Shown here piece after piece: positions 2,362 to 31,292 of a DNA stretch of 31,461 nucleotides (position 1 is its first letter; the number at the start of each line of letters is the position of its first letter). A model generated the notes under the pieces. The model did no database searches. It was given only the letters and a program-made list of their open reading frames with translations, and was not told where the DNA came from. A program made the position numbers and the translations under genes. This stretch comes from a virus. The DNA lies in the IMG/VR virus record IMGVR_UViG_3300040856_000824, positions 1-31,461 of that record; one strand, 5' to 3'.

Positions 2362-4107
2362 ATGGCCAAGCGCGGCGGTAGGTCTGGCAGGAAGTACGTC
2401 CGTGACAATCGTGGGCGGTTTGCTACGACTGGCGCCACTGCTCGGGGAGGCAGGCTGAAAACTGCAAGCGGCAAGAAGAGAGCGGCTCAAACGGTAAAAG
2501 CAAAGACCGGCGGCAAGCCTTCAGGGGCCTTAAAAGCCAAGCCGAGATCTGAGGGGCAAAAATATGCAGGGCGAGTGCAAGCCGGTAAAGACCTGAAGCG
2601 GTCGCAATCAGTAGCCAGTCAGAAAAAATTCCTTGCCAAAACGCAAAAGAGGCTAGATGCGGCACCGTTAGCGCAAAGCAAAGCAGCGGCGAAGCCGACA
2701 GCACGATCTAAGCCGACAGCCGCACGAACCAGCAAGGCGCCAGCCAATAAGGCAAAAGCTGCTTACAAGCGTGCCAGCGGCGACGCTCGAATGAGGAATG
2801 CAGACCTGAGAGGCGCAGACGCTAAGGAACGGCGGATGGCAAATAGCGCATCAGCCAAAGTCAAAAACATGCAGCGCCGGCGGTCCACTTCAGCGCCGAA
2901 GGCAGGTGCGGAAGCCCCACGTAGCAAGCAAAAAGCAAGGGAGTTTGCACGCATCCAGAGGGCTTACGGCAACGAAAGGAGAGCCTATGCAGCCAAGGGT
3001 GACGGGTTTGGTAGCGCCAAACAATCACGCACCGCATCTGTTGCAAAGCGGGCTCGTGATATTTACAGCGGAAAGATCAGCGCTTCGTATAAGACAACTT
3101 CACGGCTAACACGAACGCAAAACCCTGATGTCTTAAAGGCTCGAATCAAGAGAGGCGAGAAGCTCACGGCAGCACGCGCCAAAAAAAAAAGCGTAACGGC
3201 CAATAGCGCACGGGCCACCGGCAAGCCAGCCGCAGCGAAGCGCAAGTCGAAAAAAGTCTCAGCTGACAAGGTTTCAAGAATCGCGGATCGATTAAACAAA
3301 GTTTCCACAACAACTGGAGCGCGGCAAGGCGTTAAGGCGCTGAACCGCGCTCAGGTGGCCGTAAGGGCCAAAAGATTCCTCAGCCGTAAAGCTGGCGGTG
3401 TGTCTGCCCTTAACTCATCAGGCGCAAGCCGGGCGGACAAGATCAAATCAGTTCAGTCATCGATCAACACTCGAATCAAATACAGCACGCAGAAGCCAAA
3501 CCGAAACAAGCCAGGCCGGTTTAATGATTTAGGGCAGTCGAGCCTTCGTGCGAAAAACAAAGCGGCTGAGAAGCTTGCTACTGGTGGTTCACTTAATCGC
3601 GCGTCAAATATACGTGCTCAGGTTAAAAATACAGCCGAGCAAAATATGCCAGCGTCAACCGCAAAAATCAAGCTGAGCGGACCGTCAAGGAAAGCCCCGG
3701 ACAACGCGAGAACAAGGGCAAATCGACTTAAGACAACTCAAGCAAAAGTTAAATATTTCAGGGTGGAGCCTGACAGTTCAGCGTTCAAATCAGCGGTAAA
3801 ACAACGCGATGCAGCCTTGAGAGCACGCCCTGCCGGCACCGCAGGCAAGGTGACGTTTAGGTCAAAAGCAAGAGCCTCTAGCCGTTTCCAGCAGCGAGCG
3901 AATGACGTAACAGGCCGCGTTCGCATGAATATGAAGTACGACAGAACTAAATCCTTAAGGGCCACTGGTGGCGGAGGGGGCAAAGGGGCAAGGGTCCGTG
4001 ATACTGGGGCTAGCCAGACATCACTCTTTGGCAAGCCTGCACCGTTACGTCGCGCTTCAAAAGTCAGCGTGATAAAACGCCGCACAGGCAAACGCCGCTT
4101 TGGCTGA
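2362..4107 (+). CDS. Large, extremely basic low-complexity protein of unknown function
   Basis: 581 residues between terminase and portal. About three in ten of the first hundred residues are Lys or Arg, with Ala, Ser, Thr and Gly making up most of the rest and few acidic residues; I find no Cys, His or Trp in the whole chain. The N-terminus has YVRDNRGRFA, a short motif I associate with basic phage structural proteins. There is no hydrophobic segment and no enzyme motif. The composition resembles histone H1-like or core DNA-condensing proteins, so a virion-internal nucleic-acid-binding role is plausible but inferred. A run of ten A at 3181-3190 encodes part of a lysine cluster. A terminator follows about 70 bases downstream. 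Confidence 0.8.
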   Translation: MAKRGGRSGRKYVRDNRGRFATTGATARGGRLKTASGKKRAAQTVKAKTGGKPSGALKAKPRSEGQKYAGRVQAGKDLKRSQSVASQKKFLAKTQKRLDAAPLAQSKAAAKPTARSKPTAARTSKAPANKAKAAYKRASGDARMRNADLRGADAKERRMANSASAKVKNMQRRRSTSAPKAGAEAPRSKQKAREFARIQRAYGNERRAYAAKGDGFGSAKQSRTASVAKRARDIYSGKISASYKTTSRLTRTQNPDVLKARIKRGEKLTAARAKKKSVTANSARATGKPAAAKRKSKKVSADKVSRIADRLNKVSTTTGARQGVKALNRAQVAVRAKRFLSRKAGGVSALNSSGASRADKIKSVQSSINTRIKYSTQKPNRNKPGRFNDLGQSSLRAKNKAAEKLATGGSLNRASNIRAQVKNTAEQNMPASTAKIKLSGPSRKAPDNARTRANRLKTTQAKVKYFRVEPDSSAFKSAVKQRDAALRARPAGTAGKVTFRSKARASSRFQQRANDVTGRVRMNMKYDRTKSLRATGGGGGKGARVRDTGASQTSLFGKPAPLRRASKVSVIKRRTGKRRFG

Positions 4108-4174: not shown

Positions 4175-4206
4175 AGCCTCAGCGAGTCGAGCCGCTGGGG
4201 CTTTTT
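4175..4206 (+). terminator. Rho-independent terminator
   Basis: The stem arms are AGCCTCAGCG (4175-4184) and CGCTGGGGCT (4193-4202), ten pairs with one G-T wobble, an 8-base loop, then a T run to 4206. It would end transcripts from the terminase/basic-protein unit. A second inverted repeat without a T run, CCTGAG at 4129-4134 and CTCAGG at 4145-4150, lies just upstream. The opposite strand has no T run, so termination is probably one-directional. Confidence 0.8.
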
Positions 4207-4745: not shown

Positions 4746-6107
4746 TTGGGCTATCAATCAACGGCACGAAATAGAACTAAAACGTCAAAGGTCGTAAATG
4801 TCTATGACCCGAATCAGGCATGGATCGATCAAGAACCACACTGGGAGCTGATCGAATGCCTGCTGACGGGCACCTATGGCATCAGGAAGGAGGGCCGTAA
4901 ATATCTCCCGCAGGAGCCGCGAGAGACAGACGACGCCTACCAAAACAGGCTGCTCCGCAGCACGCTGCAGCCCTATTACGTCAGGCTGGAGCGGCTACTG
5001 GCCGGGATGCTTACGCGCAAGCCCGTCAAGCTGATTGCCATCTCAGATGGCATTCGTGAGGACCTGTTCGACGTTGACCGGCAGGGTAATGACCTGAACA
5101 CTTGGGTCTATGAAACAGCCCGTAAGGCGATCCGCTATGGCCATGCTGGCGTTTTAGTTGATGCACCATCAGACGGTAACGGCAGGCCGTACTGGTGCGC
5201 CTACACCCCAAGGGACATCTTGGGCTGGCGCACTGAAATGCAAGACGGCAAGCCTCGACTCGTTCAGCTCAGATTGAAAGAGCAGGTGACAGAACCTGAT
5301 GGAGAATACGGCGAAAAAATAGTTAGTCAGGTGAGAGTATTGACGCCAGGGTATTACGAGCTATTTAGGCAAGATGAGAAGAAAGACTACACATTATTTG
5401 AAGAAGGCAAAACAAGCCTTAGCGAAATACCGTTTTCAGTTGTATACAGCAGCCGCGTCAATTACTTGCAATCAAAGCCACCGATGGAAGACATTGGTGA
5501 ACTAAACATCAAGGCGTATCAAGTTCAATCAGATTTAGATAATATTCTTCACGTCGCCAGCGTTCCGATGTTGGCGATTTTTGGGTTCCCGCAATCAGCA
5601 GAAGAGATCAGCGCGGGGCCAAACGAAGCGCTTGCATTGCCTGAAGGCGCATCCGCGCAATACATCGAGCCAAGCGGGGCCAGCTTCAATGCATTGTTTC
5701 AGCGGCTGGATCAGATCGAAAAGCAGATCAATGAGCTAGGTCTGGCCAGTGTGCTGGGCCAGAAGCTCTCAGCCGAGACAGCCGAGTCAAAAAGGATCGA
5801 CCGCAGCCAAGGCGACTCAACGATGATGGTGATTGCCCAAAACATGCAGGACATGATTGACAATTGCTTGCGGTTTCATGCTGCCTATCTAAACGACGCA
5901 TCACCCGGCAGCGCATTGATCAACCGTGATTTCATGGGCTCCCGGATGGACCCTGGCGAGATTAAAGCGCTGCTTGAGCTCTACCTGGCCGGCACCATCA
6001 CGCAATCAACCCTGTTGGCCCAGCTTGAGGCGGGGGAAGTGCTTGGTGATGACTTTGATCTCGAGGAGGAGCTTGAGGCAACGGCTGCCGGTGGCCTGCA
6101 GGAATGA
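4746..6107 (+). CDS. Portal protein (DUF4055-like)
   Basis: 453 residues. The N-terminal half resembles DUF4055-type portal proteins: VVNVYDPNQAWIDQEPHWEL, then a helical region with YYVRLERLLAGMLTRKPV, and RKAIRYGHAGVLVDAP further in. The protein would form the dodecameric ring that connects terminase, prohead and tail. The start is a TTG at 4746, preceded at about 8 bases by AAGGCGG (4731-4737); no ATG lies near it in frame. It overlaps the head morphogenesis gene by four bases (ATGA). Position between terminase and head genes fits. Confidence 0.85.
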   Translation: MGYQSTARNRTKTSKVVNVYDPNQAWIDQEPHWELIECLLTGTYGIRKEGRKYLPQEPRETDDAYQNRLLRSTLQPYYVRLERLLAGMLTRKPVKLIAISDGIREDLFDVDRQGNDLNTWVYETARKAIRYGHAGVLVDAPSDGNGRPYWCAYTPRDILGWRTEMQDGKPRLVQLRLKEQVTEPDGEYGEKIVSQVRVLTPGYYELFRQDEKKDYTLFEEGKTSLSEIPFSVVYSSRVNYLQSKPPMEDIGELNIKAYQVQSDLDNILHVASVPMLAIFGFPQSAEEISAGPNEALALPEGASAQYIEPSGASFNALFQRLDQIEKQINELGLASVLGQKLSAETAESKRIDRSQGDSTMMVIAQNMQDMIDNCLRFHAAYLNDASPGSALINRDFMGSRMDPGEIKALLELYLAGTITQSTLLAQLEAGEVLGDDFDLEEELEATAAGGLQE

Positions 6108-8161
6108 GCACCCCGTCTGAGTTCTATCGGCATGCTGTTGACCTGAACAGGTTCAGCAATGCTGAAGCAAAACAGATCGCGATTGCTTACAACCGTCTGA
6201 TTTTGCAGGCTGTCGCCGACCTGCAGGTCTTGGTCGAGGATGAGCGAGCCTTTGACCGTCAAACCAGACTCAGGGAGATCATCAGGCAGCTACGGGCAAG
6301 CCTCGATAACTGGGCCGGCGAAAGCTCCGCATTGCTGGCCGGGGAGCTGCAGGGCCTAGCCACATTTGAAGAGCAATTCATCCGGGCGCAGCTGCTCGAG
6401 ATGGTCCCAGAACGGATGATCGACCAGGTCAGAGCGCTGCAGATCGATCCAGCCTTTGCCCGTGCTGTTGTGATGACAGACCCAATTGAGATCGGCATGA
6501 ACGTTCTGTCTGATGACCTGCTGGCAGCAGTAGGCCCATCACCGGCAACCTTCAGGCTGACGGCAACGCAGGGCGCTCAAATCACCTTGCCCAATGGCTC
6601 AACCGTATCAAAAGCATTCAGGGGAATCGCTGAATCTCAAGCTGAGCTGTTCACCAAAACGGTTCAGTCTGGATTCTTGGCAGGTGATTCAGGACCCCAA
6701 ATGGCGAGGCGCCTAAAGGGCCGTTTGAAGTTTGCTGATTTTGGGCCGCTATCGGTTCGGCAACTAGCGCAGGCAGGGGGCCAGCTCACAGCAGTGGCCA
6801 ATCATCAGGTGAACACGCTGGTGCGGACGAGCGTCAATCAGGTGGCCAATTCGATCAGCCAGGCCACCTACAAGGCCAACGCTGAGATCACAGAGAAATA
6901 TAAATACGTTGCGACGCTGGATTCACGAACCTCCGCACGCTGCAGGGCATTGGATCAACAAGTGTTTGAGTACGGCAAGGGGCCATTACCCCCGCAACAT
7001 TTCAACTGCTTACCTGGGGACGCTCACGTAACGACCAGTGGCAGCATCGCGGCGGTTTACCGTCGGAGCTATCAAGGCTTTCTCTATGTCATCAAGACCA
7101 CCAATGGTCAAGTTCTCAGAGTCACCCCAAACCATCCTGTACTGACAAGTGCTGGATGGAAGCCTGCCAATCTCGTACATGTTGGCGACAAGGTTTTTGC
7201 GAGCAATGTCATTCCACCTGAAATTATTGTGAATGACCAGAAACACCATGTCGTAACCACTGCTGAGGATGTATTCCGTGCGTTTAGTGAATCTGCGACG
7301 GTGTTCGCCGTAAAAGTGCCAACCTCCGCCCCAGACTTCCACGGCGACACGTCTAGCCCCCAGAGTGCAGAGCAAATCGCAGTTGTACTTGCCGACGGGG
7401 AACTGCTTCTCGCAGTCAATCCCAGACTTCTCAAGACATTGCTGAACTTTAGATTCAAGCGGTCCGACTTTGCGGCAACGGGCAGCAGCCATGCGGCACA
7501 AAGTTTCGTCACTGTTGGGCAGTCCGCGCTTTGCAATGTTGGCAGCGGAGGCAAGGGCTTTGCGTTCAGCTGCACTGGCGCGAGACATGCGGGCGAACTG
7601 CTGTTCACTCCTGTTTCTCAGCTTGCGACCGGATTCCAAGATGATCCGCTCAATGGGACGTGGCGAGATGCCGAATCGATTCGCGATGCCGTGAACGCCG
7701 ACACCATCATCGAACAGGGATACAATCAGGTCGAGGTCTGCTGGATTGGCCGGGAACCATTTAGCGGGCATGTCTACAACTTTGAGACAGAGAGCGGCAC
7801 TTACTGTGCTGACTCCATTTTAACTCATAACTGCAGATCGACGACCGTGCCAGAGATCGATTATGCAGCGCTTGGGATGCCTGAGCCACCACCTAGCGCT
7901 ATACGCAGGCCGGGCATCATCTCAGGGCCGATGAGCAAAGCAGCAAAGACGCGGACGGTTCCAGCGAATCAGTCTTATGGGGAATGGTTACAGGAACAAG
8001 GCGACAACGTGAAGCGCGATGTTTTAGGGCCGAGCAGGATCCCTTATTGGAACAAGCTGGTGAAGAAATACGGACCAGAGGATGCGATTCGTAAGTTTGT
8101 AGCAAATGACGGTTCAGAGCTGACATTGAAGCAGCTCAAGGCACGGTACGGGCAACCCTAG
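6104..8161 (+). CDS. Head morphogenesis protein (Mu gpF/SPP1 gp7-like) interrupted by an intein
   Basis: 685 residues as translated. Residues 1-301 and 577-685 form a Mu gpF/SPP1 gp7-like minor head protein that acts with the portal in prohead assembly. The join rebuilds the family's signature: PPQHFN before the intein, then CRSTTVP after it. Residues 302-576 are an intein starting at Cys302 and ending His575-Asn576, with Cys577 as the +1 nucleophile. The spliced product would be 410 residues. The gene overlaps the portal by ATGA. A nuclease-like gene runs antisense through the intein. The intein itself shows no LAGLIDADG or HNH motif on the plus strand. Confidence 0.9.
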   Translation: MSTPSEFYRHAVDLNRFSNAEAKQIAIAYNRLILQAVADLQVLVEDERAFDRQTRLREIIRQLRASLDNWAGESSALLAGELQGLATFEEQFIRAQLLEMVPERMIDQVRALQIDPAFARAVVMTDPIEIGMNVLSDDLLAAVGPSPATFRLTATQGAQITLPNGSTVSKAFRGIAESQAELFTKTVQSGFLAGDSGPQMARRLKGRLKFADFGPLSVRQLAQAGGQLTAVANHQVNTLVRTSVNQVANSISQATYKANAEITEKYKYVATLDSRTSARCRALDQQVFEYGKGPLPPQHFNCLPGDAHVTTSGSIAAVYRRSYQGFLYVIKTTNGQVLRVTPNHPVLTSAGWKPANLVHVGDKVFASNVIPPEIIVNDQKHHVVTTAEDVFRAFSESATVFAVKVPTSAPDFHGDTSSPQSAEQIAVVLADGELLLAVNPRLLKTLLNFRFKRSDFAATGSSHAAQSFVTVGQSALCNVGSGGKGFAFSCTGARHAGELLFTPVSQLATGFQDDPLNGTWRDAESIRDAVNADTIIEQGYNQVEVCWIGREPFSGHVYNFETESGTYCADSILTHNCRSTTVPEIDYAALGMPEPPPSAIRRPGIISGPMSKAAKTRTVPANQSYGEWLQEQGDNVKRDVLGPSRIPYWNKLVKKYGPEDAIRKFVANDGSELTLKQLKARYGQP
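7007..7831 (+). other. Intein coding segment (275 codons)
   Basis: Block A begins CLPGDAHV at intein residue 1. Block B is RVTPNHPVLTSAGW, with the Thr40-x-x-His43 that activates the N-terminal splice junction. Block F/G is GHVYNFETESG followed by SILTHN and the +1 Cys. All residues needed for Cys-type splicing are present. The middle of the intein matches no known endonuclease on this strand; it is largely the complement of the minus-strand nuclease gene at 7010-7771. The intein is inserted at the conserved Cys of the gpF-like domain, a typical site because it is constrained. Boundaries come from the splice residues and are exact if splicing follows the standard mechanism. Confidence 0.93.
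7010..7771 (-). CDS. Putative homing endonuclease (Vsr-like/EDxHD-type), antisense within the intein
   Basis: 253 residues, wholly inside the intein on the other strand. The N-terminus has a helix-turn-helix (about 14-45, HGIANRFGISPRPIERII). The nuclease core has Glu106 (PLESKV), Asp132 (KYNCDLL), Glu145 and Trp151-His152 in VEVWGGGWH, then basic residues and His181, the order seen in Vsr-like/EDxHD homing nucleases. The TAA stop is the complement of intein codon 2. Its residues 213-216 (MVWG) lie opposite intein TPNH, and its active-site segment 145-152 lies opposite intein residues 104-111. I see no Shine-Dalgarno; a lone TAAAAT sits about 46 bases upstream (complement of 7817-7822). Expected role: cut intein-free alleles so that the intein spreads. 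Confidence 0.8.
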   Translation of the reverse strand: MPAKWFPANPADLDLIVSLFDDGVGVHGIANRFGISPRPIERIILESGRKLRNRSEQQFARMSRASAAERKALASAANIAKRGLPNSDETLCRMAAARCRKVGPLESKVQQCLEKSGIDCEKQFPVGKYNCDLLCTLGARRVAVEVWGGGWHFYGEHRRRFTKRTEYILSSGYDMVFLVIHNNFRWNDIARKNLVANMYEIGRLPSSTCQYRMVWGDSENLTIGGLDDIEKALIAPTVNRRDAATGRYVSVPR

Positions 8162-8186
8162 AATCAAAGCAACGGGAGCCATTCAA

Positions 8187-8276
8187 ATGAAGTATTCAGC
8201 AGGCATGAAGAAGGGCATGAAGAAAGGCATGAAGAAAGGAACCAAAAAAGGCATGAAGAAAGGAATGAAGAAGTGA
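8187..8276 (+). CDS. MKKG-repeat micropeptide
   Basis: 29 residues: MKYSAG followed by repeats of MKKG (one as TKKG), ending MKK. GGGAG lies about 10 bases before the ATG, and the stop overlaps the next gene's GTG start in GTGA, which supports translation. It is almost entirely Lys, Gly and Met, so it is disordered and strongly basic, and might bind DNA or an acidic capsid partner; that is inference. It lies in a run of three small basic genes before the scaffold and capsid genes. The repetitive DNA should make its length variable between relatives. Confidence 0.65.
   Translation: MKYSAGMKKGMKKGMKKGTKKGMKKGMKK
8205..8273 (+). repeat. Imperfect 12-base tandem repeat (unit ATGAAGAAAGGC)
   Basis: Nearly six copies in a row. 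Copies start at 8205, 8217, 8229, 8241 (ACCAAAAAAGGC, the most diverged), 8253 and 8265 (truncated at the stop codon). The repeat is in frame and encodes MKKG units, so copy-number changes would keep the reading frame. Confidence 0.9.
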
Positions 8277-8497
8277 AAAAAGGGCAGCGAGTCAGCTGGG
8301 TTTATCAAGGGAAACGGACGTTTGGCACTGTTACCGCAATGGGCGGGGCCAGAGCTGTCATCAAGGGGCCAAGGGGCGGCAACATCGTCAGGGTCGGCAC
8401 TGCTGACGATCCAGTGATCAAACTCAAATCAGAATCGACAGGCAACCCAGTCTTAAAGCGTCGATCACAGCTGAAGTCAGCACCAAAAAAGAAGTGA
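8273..8497 (+). CDS. Small basic protein, HVA1/DUF2945-like (Tudor-type) domain
   Basis: 74 residues starting at GTG 8273, which overlaps the preceding TGA. It has KKGQRVSWVYQGKRTFGTV near the start, then DDPVIKLKSESTGNPVLKR, and a Lys-rich tail. This order (G-x-x-V-x-W, G-x-V, DP, then K-S-x-x-T-G) resembles the small beta-barrel HVA1/DUF2945 family, whose biochemical role is poorly known. It shares a coupled micro-operon with the MKKG peptide and the gene at 8494. Domain assignment is from memory of the pattern and is moderate. Confidence 0.6.
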   Translation: MKKGQRVSWVYQGKRTFGTVTAMGGARAVIKGPRGGNIVRVGTADDPVIKLKSESTGNPVLKRRSQLKSAPKKK

Positions 8498-8772
8498 GCA
8501 TCAAGCGCGGCGGCCATACGTTTGACGGCTATGACAAGCCGATTCGAACGCCAAGCCATCCCAGCGGCAAAAGCCACGCTGTAGTGGTGAAGGCGGACGG
8601 CAAACCAAAGCTGATTCGGTTTGGGATGCAAGGTGCAAAGCCAAAGCCGCCACGTAAAGGTGAGTCAGCTGCTGATAAAGCAAAACGCGCATCATTCAAA
8701 GCGCGACATGCGAAAAACATCGCCAAAGGCAAAACTTCTGCAGCCTATTGGGCGAATAAAGTAAAGTGGTGA
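8494..8772 (+). CDS. Small basic phage protein of a conserved but uncharacterised type
   Basis: 92 residues from a GTG at 8494 overlapping the previous stop (GTGA). The centre has KPKLIRFGMQG, and the C-terminus is FKARHAKNIAKGKTSAAYWA followed by NKVKW. I recall this C-terminal pattern from small proteins of many marine and freshwater phages, but no function is known to me. It is rich in Lys, Ala and Gly. It sits directly before the scaffold gene, so a head-related role is possible, only by position. Confidence 0.7.
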   Translation: MSIKRGGHTFDGYDKPIRTPSHPSGKSHAVVVKADGKPKLIRFGMQGAKPKPPRKGESAADKAKRASFKARHAKNIAKGKTSAAYWANKVKW

Positions 8773-29184: not shown

Positions 29185-29487
29185 GTGTTCATCGATGGTG
29201 CTGAGCTGGTCCCCAAAAAATCAGCTCAAGCGCGGTTCAGGCGCAGCATCCTCGAGGCGTTCGATCACAGGTGTGCCTATTGCGATGCCGAGCTAAGTGC
29301 AGGCAACACGACGTTAGATCATGTGAAACCCAAGGCGACAGGAGGCCAGACAATCCCCGGAAACCTTGTAGCCTGCTGCGCACGATGCAACGGTAAGAAG
29401 GGGGCTCAGCTGTGGCGTGAGTGGTTCAGGGCTCAGCCTTTTTGGTCAGCCGAACTTGAGGCAAGGATTGAGCGCTGGATCACTTGA
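29185..29487 (+). CDS. HNH endonuclease
   Basis: 100 residues starting at GTG 29185, directly after the endolysin stop. HRCAYCDAE, TLDHVKPKATGG (His of the HNH), NLVACCARCNGKKG give the CxxC...DH...N...CxxC pattern. Such small HNH proteins occur both free in phages, sometimes near packaging genes, and as mobile genes. The last 55 bases overlap the 3' end of the convergent minus-strand methyltransferase. Whether it is a homing or a packaging nuclease cannot be told. Confidence 0.87.
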   Translation: MFIDGAELVPKKSAQARFRRSILEAFDHRCAYCDAELSAGNTTLDHVKPKATGGQTIPGNLVACCARCNGKKGAQLWREWFRAQPFWSAELEARIERWIT

Positions 29488-31292
29488 AGGCGTTTCGAGG
29501 CAATACTGACGTACTCTTCTTCTCGTTCAATGCCGATGAAGTCAAAGCCTTCGCGCACTGCGGCTTTGCCGGTGCTGCCGCTACCCATGAAGGGATCGAG
29601 GACAACACCGTTGGGAGGGGTGACCAGACGCACGAGGTATGCCATTAGGGCAGTTGGCTTGACCGTGGGGTGCGTGTTGCCTTCTTCACGGTCTTTCTTG
29701 TTGGCCTTAGCGCAATAGAAGAACCGCGCAGCGGAACCGGAGTCGGATTGATAGCTTCTCAGGCCCGAAACAGGAGCAAGGCCCTTAAAGATGTTGCCGT
29801 CCTGAGTCTTGCTGTGCTTATCTCCGCCCCCGCTTTTCGTATGCGGAAACAGCTCAGTCACTTCATCGCTGCCGTCGTGTATCAGGTTCGCAGGCCAGCG
29901 GCCAGATGCAGGTTGAAACTTAGTGCCGCGAGTTTTGACATCGCTACCAATTGAAAAATGATCACCACCCTGCGTGACATTTAATTCTGTATAGTCACTA
30001 CCAGCTTCAACCCTGCAGCCGTCGATGTTGATTGCGCCAGTGCCGTGCTCCAGCACGTTATTAGCCACGGTGCCCTTGAACGGCTTACGAGCAACGGTGA
30101 TCGGCTCTAGGGCAGGCTTGAGCGCAGTGCCCCAGCCATCCCAGCCTTCAACCTTCTTGCCCACGTTCATCGATTTCGGAAAACCTGAGCCATACACCCA
30201 AGCGATCATGTCCCTGATCTCGAAGCCTGCATCCTCGATGTTTACTGCCATACGGTGCTGAGTACGAGTACCAGCAAAGGCCAATAGGTGACCGCCAGGC
30301 TTCAACACCCGTAGGCATTGCTCCCAGATGTCAACAGAGGGAACGTCATAATCCCACGCTTGACCCATAAACCCGCCTCGGCTACTATTGAGGCAAGAAA
30401 GGAACTCACGATGAAAGTTGACCGTCAATGCCCCGTCTGCGGCACTACCTATCAAGCGGACAGCGTGCGGCTTAAACACGGCAGGCAGACCACCTGCAGC
30501 CGCGCCTGTAGCTACGCGCTCCGTGCTGACAAGCTCAGCGATCAGGTCAACCTGACCTGCGCCACCTGCGGGCAAGACTTCACACGTGCCCGTGGCGGTG
30601 TCAAAGGCAAGTACGACAACCAGTTCTGCAGCAGCGCCTGTCACTACAGAGGACGCACTCTTGGGCTTAGCAAGCGCATCGTCCTCAAGCCCTACGAAGT
30701 CAGCGAGGCTGGTCGCGCCGCACAGCGGCTTGGTCAAGAGAAAGCACGCAAAGTCCGAATCCGCAGGGACAACTACGGGCACACTGAAGCGACTAGGGCC
30801 AAGCTGTCGCAAGCCAATGCGCTCGCAATCGCTGAAGGCCGAGTGCCTAAGAGGTCGAAAACTGAGGACATACTCGCCGAGCAGCTCACCAAGCGCGGGA
30901 TTCGCTTCATCCACCAACACCCCGTCAGGAACCCCAACGGCACCTACGCCTGCTGCTTCGACTTCTTCCTGCCTGAGTTTGGCGTTGTTCTTGAAGTCAA
31001 CGGGACCTTCTGGCACTCCGATCCTCGCTTTTACCCCGAAGGACCTCAGAGCCCAGTCCAGAAAAAGAACGCTGTCGCGTGGGAAAGGAAGCTCTGCCTT
31101 GCCAAAACGCTTGGCATAGAGATCCGCGAGGTCTGGGAGCACGACCTCAAGCATTGCGCTACTGAGGCTGCGGACGTTGCGCTTGCTGGCTTGGGATAAC
31201 CCATACGGTGGGTCGGTGACGATGCTGTCAACGCTGTCATCTCCGAGCGTGGCAAGAACGTCTAAAGAATTGCCGCAATGAAGCTGGATCAC
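29433..31292 (-). CDS. DNA methyltransferase (beta-class, N4-cytosine/N6-adenine type) carrying an in-frame insert
   Basis: 619 residues from GTG 31292. DPPY (27-30) is motif IV; after an insert at about 35-304 the family sequence resumes at GGFMGQAWDYDVPSVDIW (306 on), then LRVLKPGGHLLAFAGTRTQH, WVYGSGFPKSMNVGK, HPTVKP, and DPFMGSGSTG (566-575), the SAM-binding motif. DPPY before FMGSGSTG marks the beta class. It probably protects phage DNA from restriction. The insert is essentially the antisense translation of the nuclease gene at 30411-31199; I see no intein motifs in it. The GTG overlaps the stop of the upstream minus-strand gene. Activity with the insert is unknown. Confidence 0.85.
   Translation of the reverse strand: MIQLHCGNSLDVLATLGDDSVDSIVTDPPYGLSQASKRNVRSLSSAMLEVVLPDLADLYAKRFGKAELPFPRDSVLFLDWALRSFGVKARIGVPEGPVDFKNNAKLRQEEVEAAGVGAVGVPDGVLVDEANPALGELLGEYVLSFRPLRHSAFSDCERIGLRQLGPSRFSVPVVVPADSDFACFLLTKPLCGATSLADFVGLEDDALAKPKSASSVVTGAAAELVVVLAFDTATGTCEVLPAGGAGQVDLIAELVSTERVATGAAAGGLPAVFKPHAVRLIGSAADGALTVNFHREFLSCLNSSRGGFMGQAWDYDVPSVDIWEQCLRVLKPGGHLLAFAGTRTQHRMAVNIEDAGFEIRDMIAWVYGSGFPKSMNVGKKVEGWDGWGTALKPALEPITVARKPFKGTVANNVLEHGTGAINIDGCRVEAGSDYTELNVTQGGDHFSIGSDVKTRGTKFQPASGRWPANLIHDGSDEVTELFPHTKSGGGDKHSKTQDGNIFKGLAPVSGLRSYQSDSGSAARFFYCAKANKKDREEGNTHPTVKPTALMAYLVRLVTPPNGVVLDPFMGSGSTGKAAVREGFDFIGIEREEEYVSIASKRLQVIQRSILASSSADQKG
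30360..30388 (+). promoter_or_regulatory. Putative sigma-70 promoter for the antisense nuclease
   Basis: TTGACC at 30360-30365 (five of six bases of -35), exactly 17 bases, then TACTAT at 30383-30388 (four of six of -10). Transcription would begin near 30395, just before an AAAGGAA Shine-Dalgarno (30398-30404) and the ATG at 30411. The -35 lies in sequence that encodes conserved GGFMGQ of the methyltransferase on the other strand, so host-gene sequence may supply part of the promoter. Confidence 0.55.
30411..31199 (+). CDS. Putative homing endonuclease (Vsr-like/EDxHD-type) with zinc knuckles, antisense within the methyltransferase
   Basis: 262 residues from ATG 30411, chosen for its Shine-Dalgarno and because conserved sequence begins there; the frame is open from 30318 but that part is not protein-like. 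Two zinc knuckles: Cys7, 10, 29, 33 and Cys50, 53, 73, 77. A NUMOD3-like helix lies at 123-140 (GHTEATRAKLSQANALAI). The nuclease core has Glu152 (KTEDIL), Asp184 (CCFDFFLPEF), Glu195 and Trp201-His202 (LEVNGTFWH), and Glu243-His-Asp245. This is the layout of a DNA-binding homing nuclease. Its stop, 31197-31199, falls right after the methyltransferase DPPYGL codons on the other strand. Confidence 0.85.
   Translation: MKVDRQCPVCGTTYQADSVRLKHGRQTTCSRACSYALRADKLSDQVNLTCATCGQDFTRARGGVKGKYDNQFCSSACHYRGRTLGLSKRIVLKPYEVSEAGRAAQRLGQEKARKVRIRRDNYGHTEATRAKLSQANALAIAEGRVPKRSKTEDILAEQLTKRGIRFIHQHPVRNPNGTYACCFDFFLPEFGVVLEVNGTFWHSDPRFYPEGPQSPVQKKNAVAWERKLCLAKTLGIEIREVWEHDLKHCATEAADVALAGLG

Follow-up and report, generated by a model that had tools for sequence, protein, structure and literature searches.

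The polyvalent proteins of phages and conjugative elements are built from several modules, and Iyer et al. 2017 (PMC5512222) predict that they are packaged and injected. The same source, where it turns to phage T4, describes Alt as an ADP-ribosyltransferase (ART) that is packaged in the head and injected. The T4 capsid targeting sequence can encapsidate almost any attached protein; it has about 10 amino acids and is detached by the head protease, as stated in sections of PMC7697877. In polymorphic toxins, the variable parts are exchanged by cassette recombination, according to a passage of PMC3482391. Here we compare with these systems a gene from a 31.5-kb virus record, the whole of which is referred to as the window. 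On balance, sequence comparison and analogy tip slightly towards the gene encoding a tagged modular cargo, a protein that would be packaged in the head, be ejected with the DNA and carry host-directed cassettes.

The gene opens with an ATG 14 nt past the stop codon of the terminase large subunit gene (941-2347, +; phrog_2, 4e-33), occupies positions 2362-4107 (+; 581 codons plus stop) and is followed by the gene of the portal protein (DUF4055; 4746-6107, +; phrog_145, 9e-118). The protein has 77 lysines, 78 arginines, 19 aspartates and 9 glutamates, a net charge of +127 and a pI of 12.0, and contains no cysteine, histidine or tryptophan; it thus is what an earlier note on this DNA had described, a 581-residue highly basic protein free of these three residues between terminase and portal. 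In 20 other hand-picked ORFs of the window the three residues make up 2.7%, and on that basis the chance of finding none in 581 residues is 1.3e-7. The net charge per residue is +0.22, compared with at most +0.08 for every ORF of more than 100 amino acids among the same 20; two short ORFs of this set get to +0.20. The claim of a downstream terminator is matched by a terminator-like hairpin of 10 pairs with a T tail at 4175-4202 (+), which has seven G-C pairs, the highest number among the 12 terminator-like sites of the window, the count of such sites not being above that of shuffled sequences (11.0 +/- 3.1). We infer that the ORF may be co-transcribed with the terminase genes.

No relative of the window protein was found in Pfam, PHROGs, the PDB sequences or 50,697 phage records, the tblastn part of this search being weakened by masking. 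The window protein matches no Pfam or PHROGs family at E<=1, its best E in the PDB sequences is 0.09, and nine further basic members found nothing better than E=0.3 in Pfam and PHROGs. Searches of the 50,697 phage records by tblastn with the protein, its relatives and its N-terminal module gave no relative but stray matches (one with E=5 and three with E>=2). As the built-in low-complexity filter weakens such negatives, blastn, which masks DNA repeats only, was added and also found no relative in these records, with at most six short matches (E>=0.1). A scan with the protein against 84,980 genomes of bacteria and archaea likewise gave no relative, and no report of a tagged cassette family was found in the open-access literature. 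Polyvalent proteins are recognised by at least two disparate domains and by their occurrence in terminase-portal phages: the ORF is flanked by both genes and its product has none of the former (0 Pfam and 0 PHROG families at that threshold), and as a single protein it falls outside the polyvalent class because no second activity was detected.

Relatives were collected by IMG/VR scans, which returned 12 loci for the window protein and, for the terminase, the best 80 loci of 523 confirmed stretches. L006, a contig of 8.7 kb, encodes the same protein and probably derives from the window phage itself. The IMG/VR relatives have a common plan: a conserved N-terminal module of about 55 amino acids (N-module), discrete cassettes joined by linkers of the KPAAAKP type and a short C-terminus. 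All 68 deduplicated members have a net charge of +0.16 to +0.25 per residue and nearly lack cysteine, histidine and tryptophan. The cassette dictionary was made by reading and by BLAST of hand-cut seeds, with seeds and linker words picked by eye; 28 of the 33 cassette seeds have at least two distinct sequences. Comparison of the cassettes with hhalign gave a probability of at least 50% in 11 of 528 pairs and in 0 of 528 column-shuffled controls, indicating that some cassettes are remotely related and most not detectably so. When pairs of at least 90% probability are merged, 24 groups are left, from which we estimate roughly two dozen cassette families.

In this dictionary, the window protein has the architecture N1-B-C-D-U-E, with all features on the plus strand. 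N1 (residues 1-55, 2362-2526; median dN/dS 0.14), the proposed sorting tag, is followed by cassette B (residues 57-106, 2530-2679; 0.31), by an A/K/P/T-rich linker that joins B to C (2680-2745) and by cassette C (residues 129-276, 2746-3189; 0.13), which is helical in a low-confidence AF2 model and contains the recurrent word RARDIY (3049-3066). An A10 run (3181-3190) forms the end of C and the start of the next linker, SVTANSARATGKPAAA (3190-3237), which is a recombination junction in relatives. Cassette D (residues 293-400, 3238-3561; 0.23, with dS saturated) includes the word RAKRFL (3364-3381). Segment U (residues 401-443, 3562-3690), with its seed taken from the window protein, was found in no other of the 68 family members compared. 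The C-terminal cassette E (residues 444-574, 3691-4083; 0.07) includes the word QTSLF (4015-4029) and precedes the short C-terminus TGKRRFG with the stop codon (4084-4107); other near relatives end on KRRRS, KRRRG or KRRFS and a few otherwise.

For the window protein, AF2 predicts, at low confidence, helices separated by disorder (mean pLDDT 53.8; pLDDT of at least 70 in 123 of 581 residues). A self-comparison, which the earlier note had suggested as a check for repeats, found no internal repeat at E<=1. The low complexity that had been ascribed to the protein therefore applies to the linkers and not to the rest, which has no internal repeat and consists of cassettes that are distinct and conserved in relatives. 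Several cassettes have a [RK]A..[FIY][YL]-like word: the form A..[FYI][YLIFVH], which was picked post hoc and counted over seeds of which some are related, is present in 14 of the 33 seeds versus 4.9 in shuffles (0 of 2000 reach 14). The plainer word A..[FY] shows no enrichment, being present in 17 of the 33 seeds versus 14.3 in shuffles (375 of 2000 shuffles reach 17).

Among the other genes of the window, that of the MuF protein (6104-8161, +) is interrupted by what looks like an intein (Pfam Intein_splicing, 4e-5, below cut-off), with the borders CLPGDAHV...THN/C set by eye. Opposite this insert, at 7010-7771 (-), lies an ORF of 253 amino acids with a weak, below-cut-off match to the MTES_1575 restriction endonuclease family (1.9e-5); it may be an endonuclease gene that lies antisense within the intein. 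A DNA methylase-like ORF (29433-31292, -) has, by eye, an insert of about 270 amino acids between DPPYG and GFMG, and on the opposite strand (30318-31199, +) is a Cys-rich ORF of 293 amino acids with weak PvuRts1I-like (2e-4) and Vsr nuclease (8e-4) matches, both below cut-off. The window phage has antisense nuclease-like ORFs in these two genes, MuF and methylase-like. A small Hva1_TUDOR-like protein is encoded near the capsid genes (8273-8497, +), and a small beta segment at the end of cassette W of the relative L020 looks, by eye, similar to it. The 92-aa basic protein at 8494-8772 (+; phrog_7595) contains ARHAKNIAKGKTSAAYW, which resembles, by eye, RARDIYSGKISASY of cassette C.

The slot between terminase and portal was surveyed in loci from these scans (terminase: best 80 of 523) that have a terminase at least 70% identical to that of the window and its 3' end visible; a census by exact start codon missed starts with other codons and its counts were set aside. 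The 47 loci represent 44 contigs, because L018, L019 and L036 repeat L013, L014 and L017. Among these matches, 27 contigs (30 of the 47 loci) have a basic ORF in the slot, eight have a scar or deletion, eight are empty and one is cut by the contig end. Proteins of this kind had been called rare in this slot, which does not hold among the protein's own relatives. Decay of the frame in close relatives, which would have spoken against the earlier reading, is for the most part not seen: 27 of the 44 contigs keep the ORF, with a broken or shortened frame in three of the 27 (L011, L023, L030), the scar, deletion and empty alleles being the exceptions. In six scar alleles the gene start is joined in frame to the gene end, with 12 codons in four and 7 codons in two; the four 12-codon alleles are identical in sequence and thus perhaps represent one phage. 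In L037 the two ends are joined out of frame, and L027 lacks the gene start. The absence of the gene from some close relatives indicates that it is dispensable in nature.

In seven of the eight contigs with an empty slot the portal is of another allele (61.9-69.5% identity to that of the window), and the eighth contig, L046, stops 125 nt past the terminase. The contigs with the different portal allele (L042-L045, L047, L048, L050) have terminases 94-95% identical to that of the window and a terminase-portal gap of 22-24 or 196 nt with no cassette gene, and by these identities the slot is a recombination border in them. The closest terminases in cultured phages are those of the Synechococcus and Prochlorococcus siphophages KBS-S-2A, S-H1, MED4-184/P-HS2 and MED4-117 (52-59% identical to that of the window). 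No such gene is present in the slot of the four that were read (KBS-S-2A, S-H1, MED4-184, MED4-117): KBS-S-2A has an ORF of 85 amino acids with no similarity to the cassette protein, S-H1 has one of 144 amino acids, also without similarity, plus two short reverse ORFs, and MED4-184 and MED4-117 have no annotated gene.

Where the ORF is present, its composition is hardly ever the same. Among the matches listed, 26 contigs with a terminase 93-100% identical to that of the window have 25 architectures of 168-831 amino acids; this set excludes duplicates, L012 and L023 and includes L033, which is cut by the contig end, and L011, L030 and L100 with shortened frames. Only one of the 190 pairs that have both terminase and portal readable has the same architecture. 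Relatives include N1-C-F, N1-C-J, N1-R, N1-O, N1-Q, N1-B-K-E and N1-C-F-K-E as well as the longer N1-J-G-I-W, N1-B-I-G-H and N2-B2-C-G-H-K-E. The order of cassettes is permuted (I-G in L032, G-I in L020 and L035), and cassette F is terminal in L007 and internal in L040. Cassettes also pass between lineages: L112 has a J of 82% identity and L107 a W of 83% identity, and the terminases of these two contigs are only 52% identical to that of the window.

Of 261 pairwise DNA breakpoints, 172 are close to a linker word (66% versus 12% expected; the words were picked by eye and the breakpoints are not independent); a second count, made against the hand-made seeds and partly circular, gives 242 of 261 versus 22% expected. 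Linkers are either of the KPAAAKP kind or of the AKKKSVTANSARATGK kind, and in the latter three lysines are as a rule encoded within an A10 run. In L100, L011 and L030 this run has 8 or 9 A or is in another phase and the frames are shortened, and L098, with 8 A, is still open. The variation of the run may reflect slippage within the population or assembly error.

The position between terminase and portal, and the MuF, scaffold and capsid genes that lie close to tagged ORFs, would fit an accessory factor of head assembly, of scaffold type, with cassettes fitted to the capsid or portal of each phage. The contigs L017 and L040 speak against this: their portals are 99.9% identical over 1359 bp (terminases 91.8%) and their architectures are N1-D-T and N1-C-F-K-E, hence fit to the portal cannot drive the cassettes. 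Deletion alleles exist, and the enzyme-like payloads described below are not expected of an assembly factor, an explanation that we regard as quite unlikely.

Selection was estimated for all modules with at least three members, from pairs with dS of 0.05-2.5 and at least five changes. Median dN/dS is 0.04-0.38 over all 18 testable modules, with no single pair above 0.62; for D and J the median lies at dS near 2, and M is represented by one pair, O by two and K, Q and g2b by three each. By these ratios, all 18 testable modules are under purifying selection, and the low medians indicate that the cassettes are kept for their sequence and not for charge alone. They leave a very small probability that the slot is simply a recombination hot spot with an incidental open frame and no protein function: breakpoints at linkers and scar alleles are what it would produce, but the median dN/dS, which exceeds 0.38 in none of the 18 modules, and the retention of the ORF in most contigs of the census are not.

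The same data bear on another explanation, a head protein of histone or protamine type, which would condense the packaged DNA or neutralise its charge and for which only bulk composition would matter. This has in its favour the charge of the 68 members, their near lack of cysteine, histidine and tryptophan and the KPAAAKP linkers, which resemble the tails of histone H1-like bacterial proteins; the latter are also basic and of variable length with K/A/P-rich linkers. However, at terminase identities of 93-97% the slot holds anything from 7 or 12 codons to 831 amino acids and in some contigs lacks the gene (among the matches listed), which argues that no fixed amount of charge is needed. Unlike in histone H1-like proteins, the cassettes are sequence-specific and conserved residue by residue, and there is no Pfam histone match, neither for the window protein, which matches no family at all, nor for nine relatives. 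With enzyme-like payloads behind the same N-module as a further point against it, we consider such a role unlikely. Condensation of DNA inside the head and neutralisation of charge during packaging, two of the roles proposed in the earlier note, are thus disfavoured, because slot length varies and the cassettes are constrained; the best fit is the third, an action inside the host following ejection, given the enzyme-like payloads that this N-module bears elsewhere.

The N-module has the pattern Y.RD..GRFA...GGRLK...GKKR, and its residues R10, Y12, R14, D15, G18, R19, F20, G24, T26, R31, L32 and R40 are invariant in 13 of 13 diverse aligned members. In the window, the motif Y.RD..GRF occurs once. 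Elsewhere, among the matches listed, Y.RD and GRF separated by one to three residues are found in at least 189 unique ORFs of at least 80 amino acids, in 99 clusters (306 loci); since these tagged loci were partly fetched by the motif itself, and motif patterns were chosen after reading, no claims on frequency are made. The motif is at most 30 codons from the upstream in-frame stop in 173 of the 185 measurable ORFs. At least 110 newly fetched stretches fall into 65 groups once those sharing a 300-mer are merged; a recognisable terminase, portal, MuF, scaffold or capsid gene is on the same stretch in 58 of the 65 and at least two motif hits are present in 26 (again among the matches listed).

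When 20 virus records were searched as a whole, the tag was present in 15, at one place each in the window and 11 other records and at more in three, and absent from five (41-44 kb); the window and the near-relative records have a single tagged gene each, of the basic cassette type. With the N-module alignment as query, the 84,980 prokaryotic genomes returned three loci, two on one contig of a cyanobacterial MAG and one mycobacterial. On the contig from Mycobacterium angelicum (L162), a basic ORF with Y.RD..GRF (7971-8432) lies about 360 nt past a capsid-like ORF (capsid by eye), suggesting that the tag may reach beyond cyanophages. Alignment and motif searches show the N-module to be common to the cassette family and to other proteins of similar head-gene clusters.

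The proteins behind this module are of several kinds. As in the window protein, C+H+W is below 0.6% in 128 of the 189 tagged ORFs, and a pattern search finds HExxH in 11 of the 189, with close copies among these 11 (both among the matches listed). All ten aligned HExxH payloads keep the H, E and H without exception, together with a further E downstream; AF2 gave a mean pLDDT of 48.1 for the metallopeptidase payload, and the best E in the PDB sequences is only 0.3 for the payload of L268. Pfam searches with 52 tagged ORFs found PARP in three (L268, L292, L294), Exotox-A_cataly and ART-PolyVal in one each (both L292) and DnaJ in one; the only ART-type match above the curated cut-off is Exotox-A_cataly in L292 (27.3 versus 25.9 bits). 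In L268 and L294, ART-like and HExxH domains are in one tagged polypeptide. The cyanobacterial MAG contig has three tagged ORFs: one metallopeptidase-like, which lies behind terminase, portal and MuF genes, one with a J-domain (DnaJ 3e-4, below cut-off) and one basic of 598 amino acids. In PHROGs, the 52 tagged ORFs match eight families with one or two members each. The best match is phrog_9210 (9e-9, function unknown), to the J-domain part of L163:7885-8913; two families match the ART part of L292, phrog_28013 ('virion structural protein') is matched by two tagged ORFs (0.005) and phrog_33396 by one. These enzyme-like payloads are all in other phages, with none detected in the window protein.

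One N-module on unrelated payloads of the head cluster, together with the T4 precedents of targeting sequence and Alt, suggests a cargo that is packaged and ejected. In such a course of events, the N-module would be a sorting tag and direct the protein into the prohead, although a tag common to head-cluster genes could also serve head assembly and not ejection. The cassette protein would then exit with the DNA through portal and tail, a route to which a protein free of Cys and Trp, for which little compact fold is predicted, would be suited. Once in the host, the basic helical cassettes might attach to host factors or to nucleic acids, with the sliding clamp of the host or some comparable partner as a possible docking site for the terminal tail of E/T type (QTSLF, QLSLL, QLSLM, QLALV). 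The pattern Q-x-[SAN]-[LM]-[FLMIV] is present in the tail of 18 of 18 aligned sequences (E 10, T 8), its enrichment being a post hoc result and the two QxSLF tails being related to each other; a looser clamp pattern is not significant in the cassette seeds (130 of 2000 shuffles reach it). The QTSLF-type tail resembles the bacterial sliding-clamp motif, and clamp binding by this tail is offered as a lead only.

The clamp-motif-like tail of E and T and the basic helical cassettes of the low-confidence model would equally suit a late intracellular protein of host takeover that is never packaged, with cassettes that bind the replication or nucleic-acid machinery of the host and the N-module as a binding or localisation motif. 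Against this stand the position among packaging and head genes, which in most phages are expressed late, when takeover is over, and the motif counts of the merged groups, with their repeated tags and neighbouring head or packaging genes. To such a protein we give a low probability, and we return to the packaged and ejected cargo.

We infer, by analogy, that the cassette protein may work like polyvalent or internal head proteins. As in polyvalent proteins, modules are found in terminase-portal phages, their combinations vary between relatives, and ART-like and zincin-type peptidase-like domains occur in tagged relatives (compare the corresponding passages of PMC5512222). Unlike these, the window protein is without a detected enzymatic domain and consists mostly of basic cassettes, behind a conserved N-module that has no Pfam or PHROGs match. 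The occurrence of one N-terminal element on different proteins resembles IPI-IPIII and Alt of T4, the N-module here being a putative capsid-targeting element. It differs, as far as descriptions can be compared, in its length of about 55 amino acids, whereas the T4 targeting sequence has about 10 and is detached by a protease, and in that many cassettes are fused in one polypeptide, whereas the T4 cargoes are separate genes. Polymorphic toxins differ in that here the variable part is internal, a series of cassettes, and the C-terminus is nearly fixed.

The internal proteins of T-even phages are variable, and cassette shuffling may, on this model, likewise give each phage a different set against varying hosts and defences. 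It is possible, if only tentatively proposed, that cyanophages run a combinatorial cargo in this way, with a shared tag that would mark one or more proteins of each genome for delivery together with the DNA, one of these proteins being assembled from about two dozen exchangeable, host-directed cassette families that are recombined at linkers and perhaps gated by A8-A10 runs, so that related phages inject different sets. If the protein is indeed such a cargo, it would reveal, in uncultured cyanophages, a class of phage cargo that has gone without annotation, in a group where such proteins are reportedly scarce, and its short tag would be a means of finding more of them. The tag may also serve to load proteins into siphophage heads, and the pool of cassettes would be a list of candidate anti-host or anti-defence modules, already separated by evolution.
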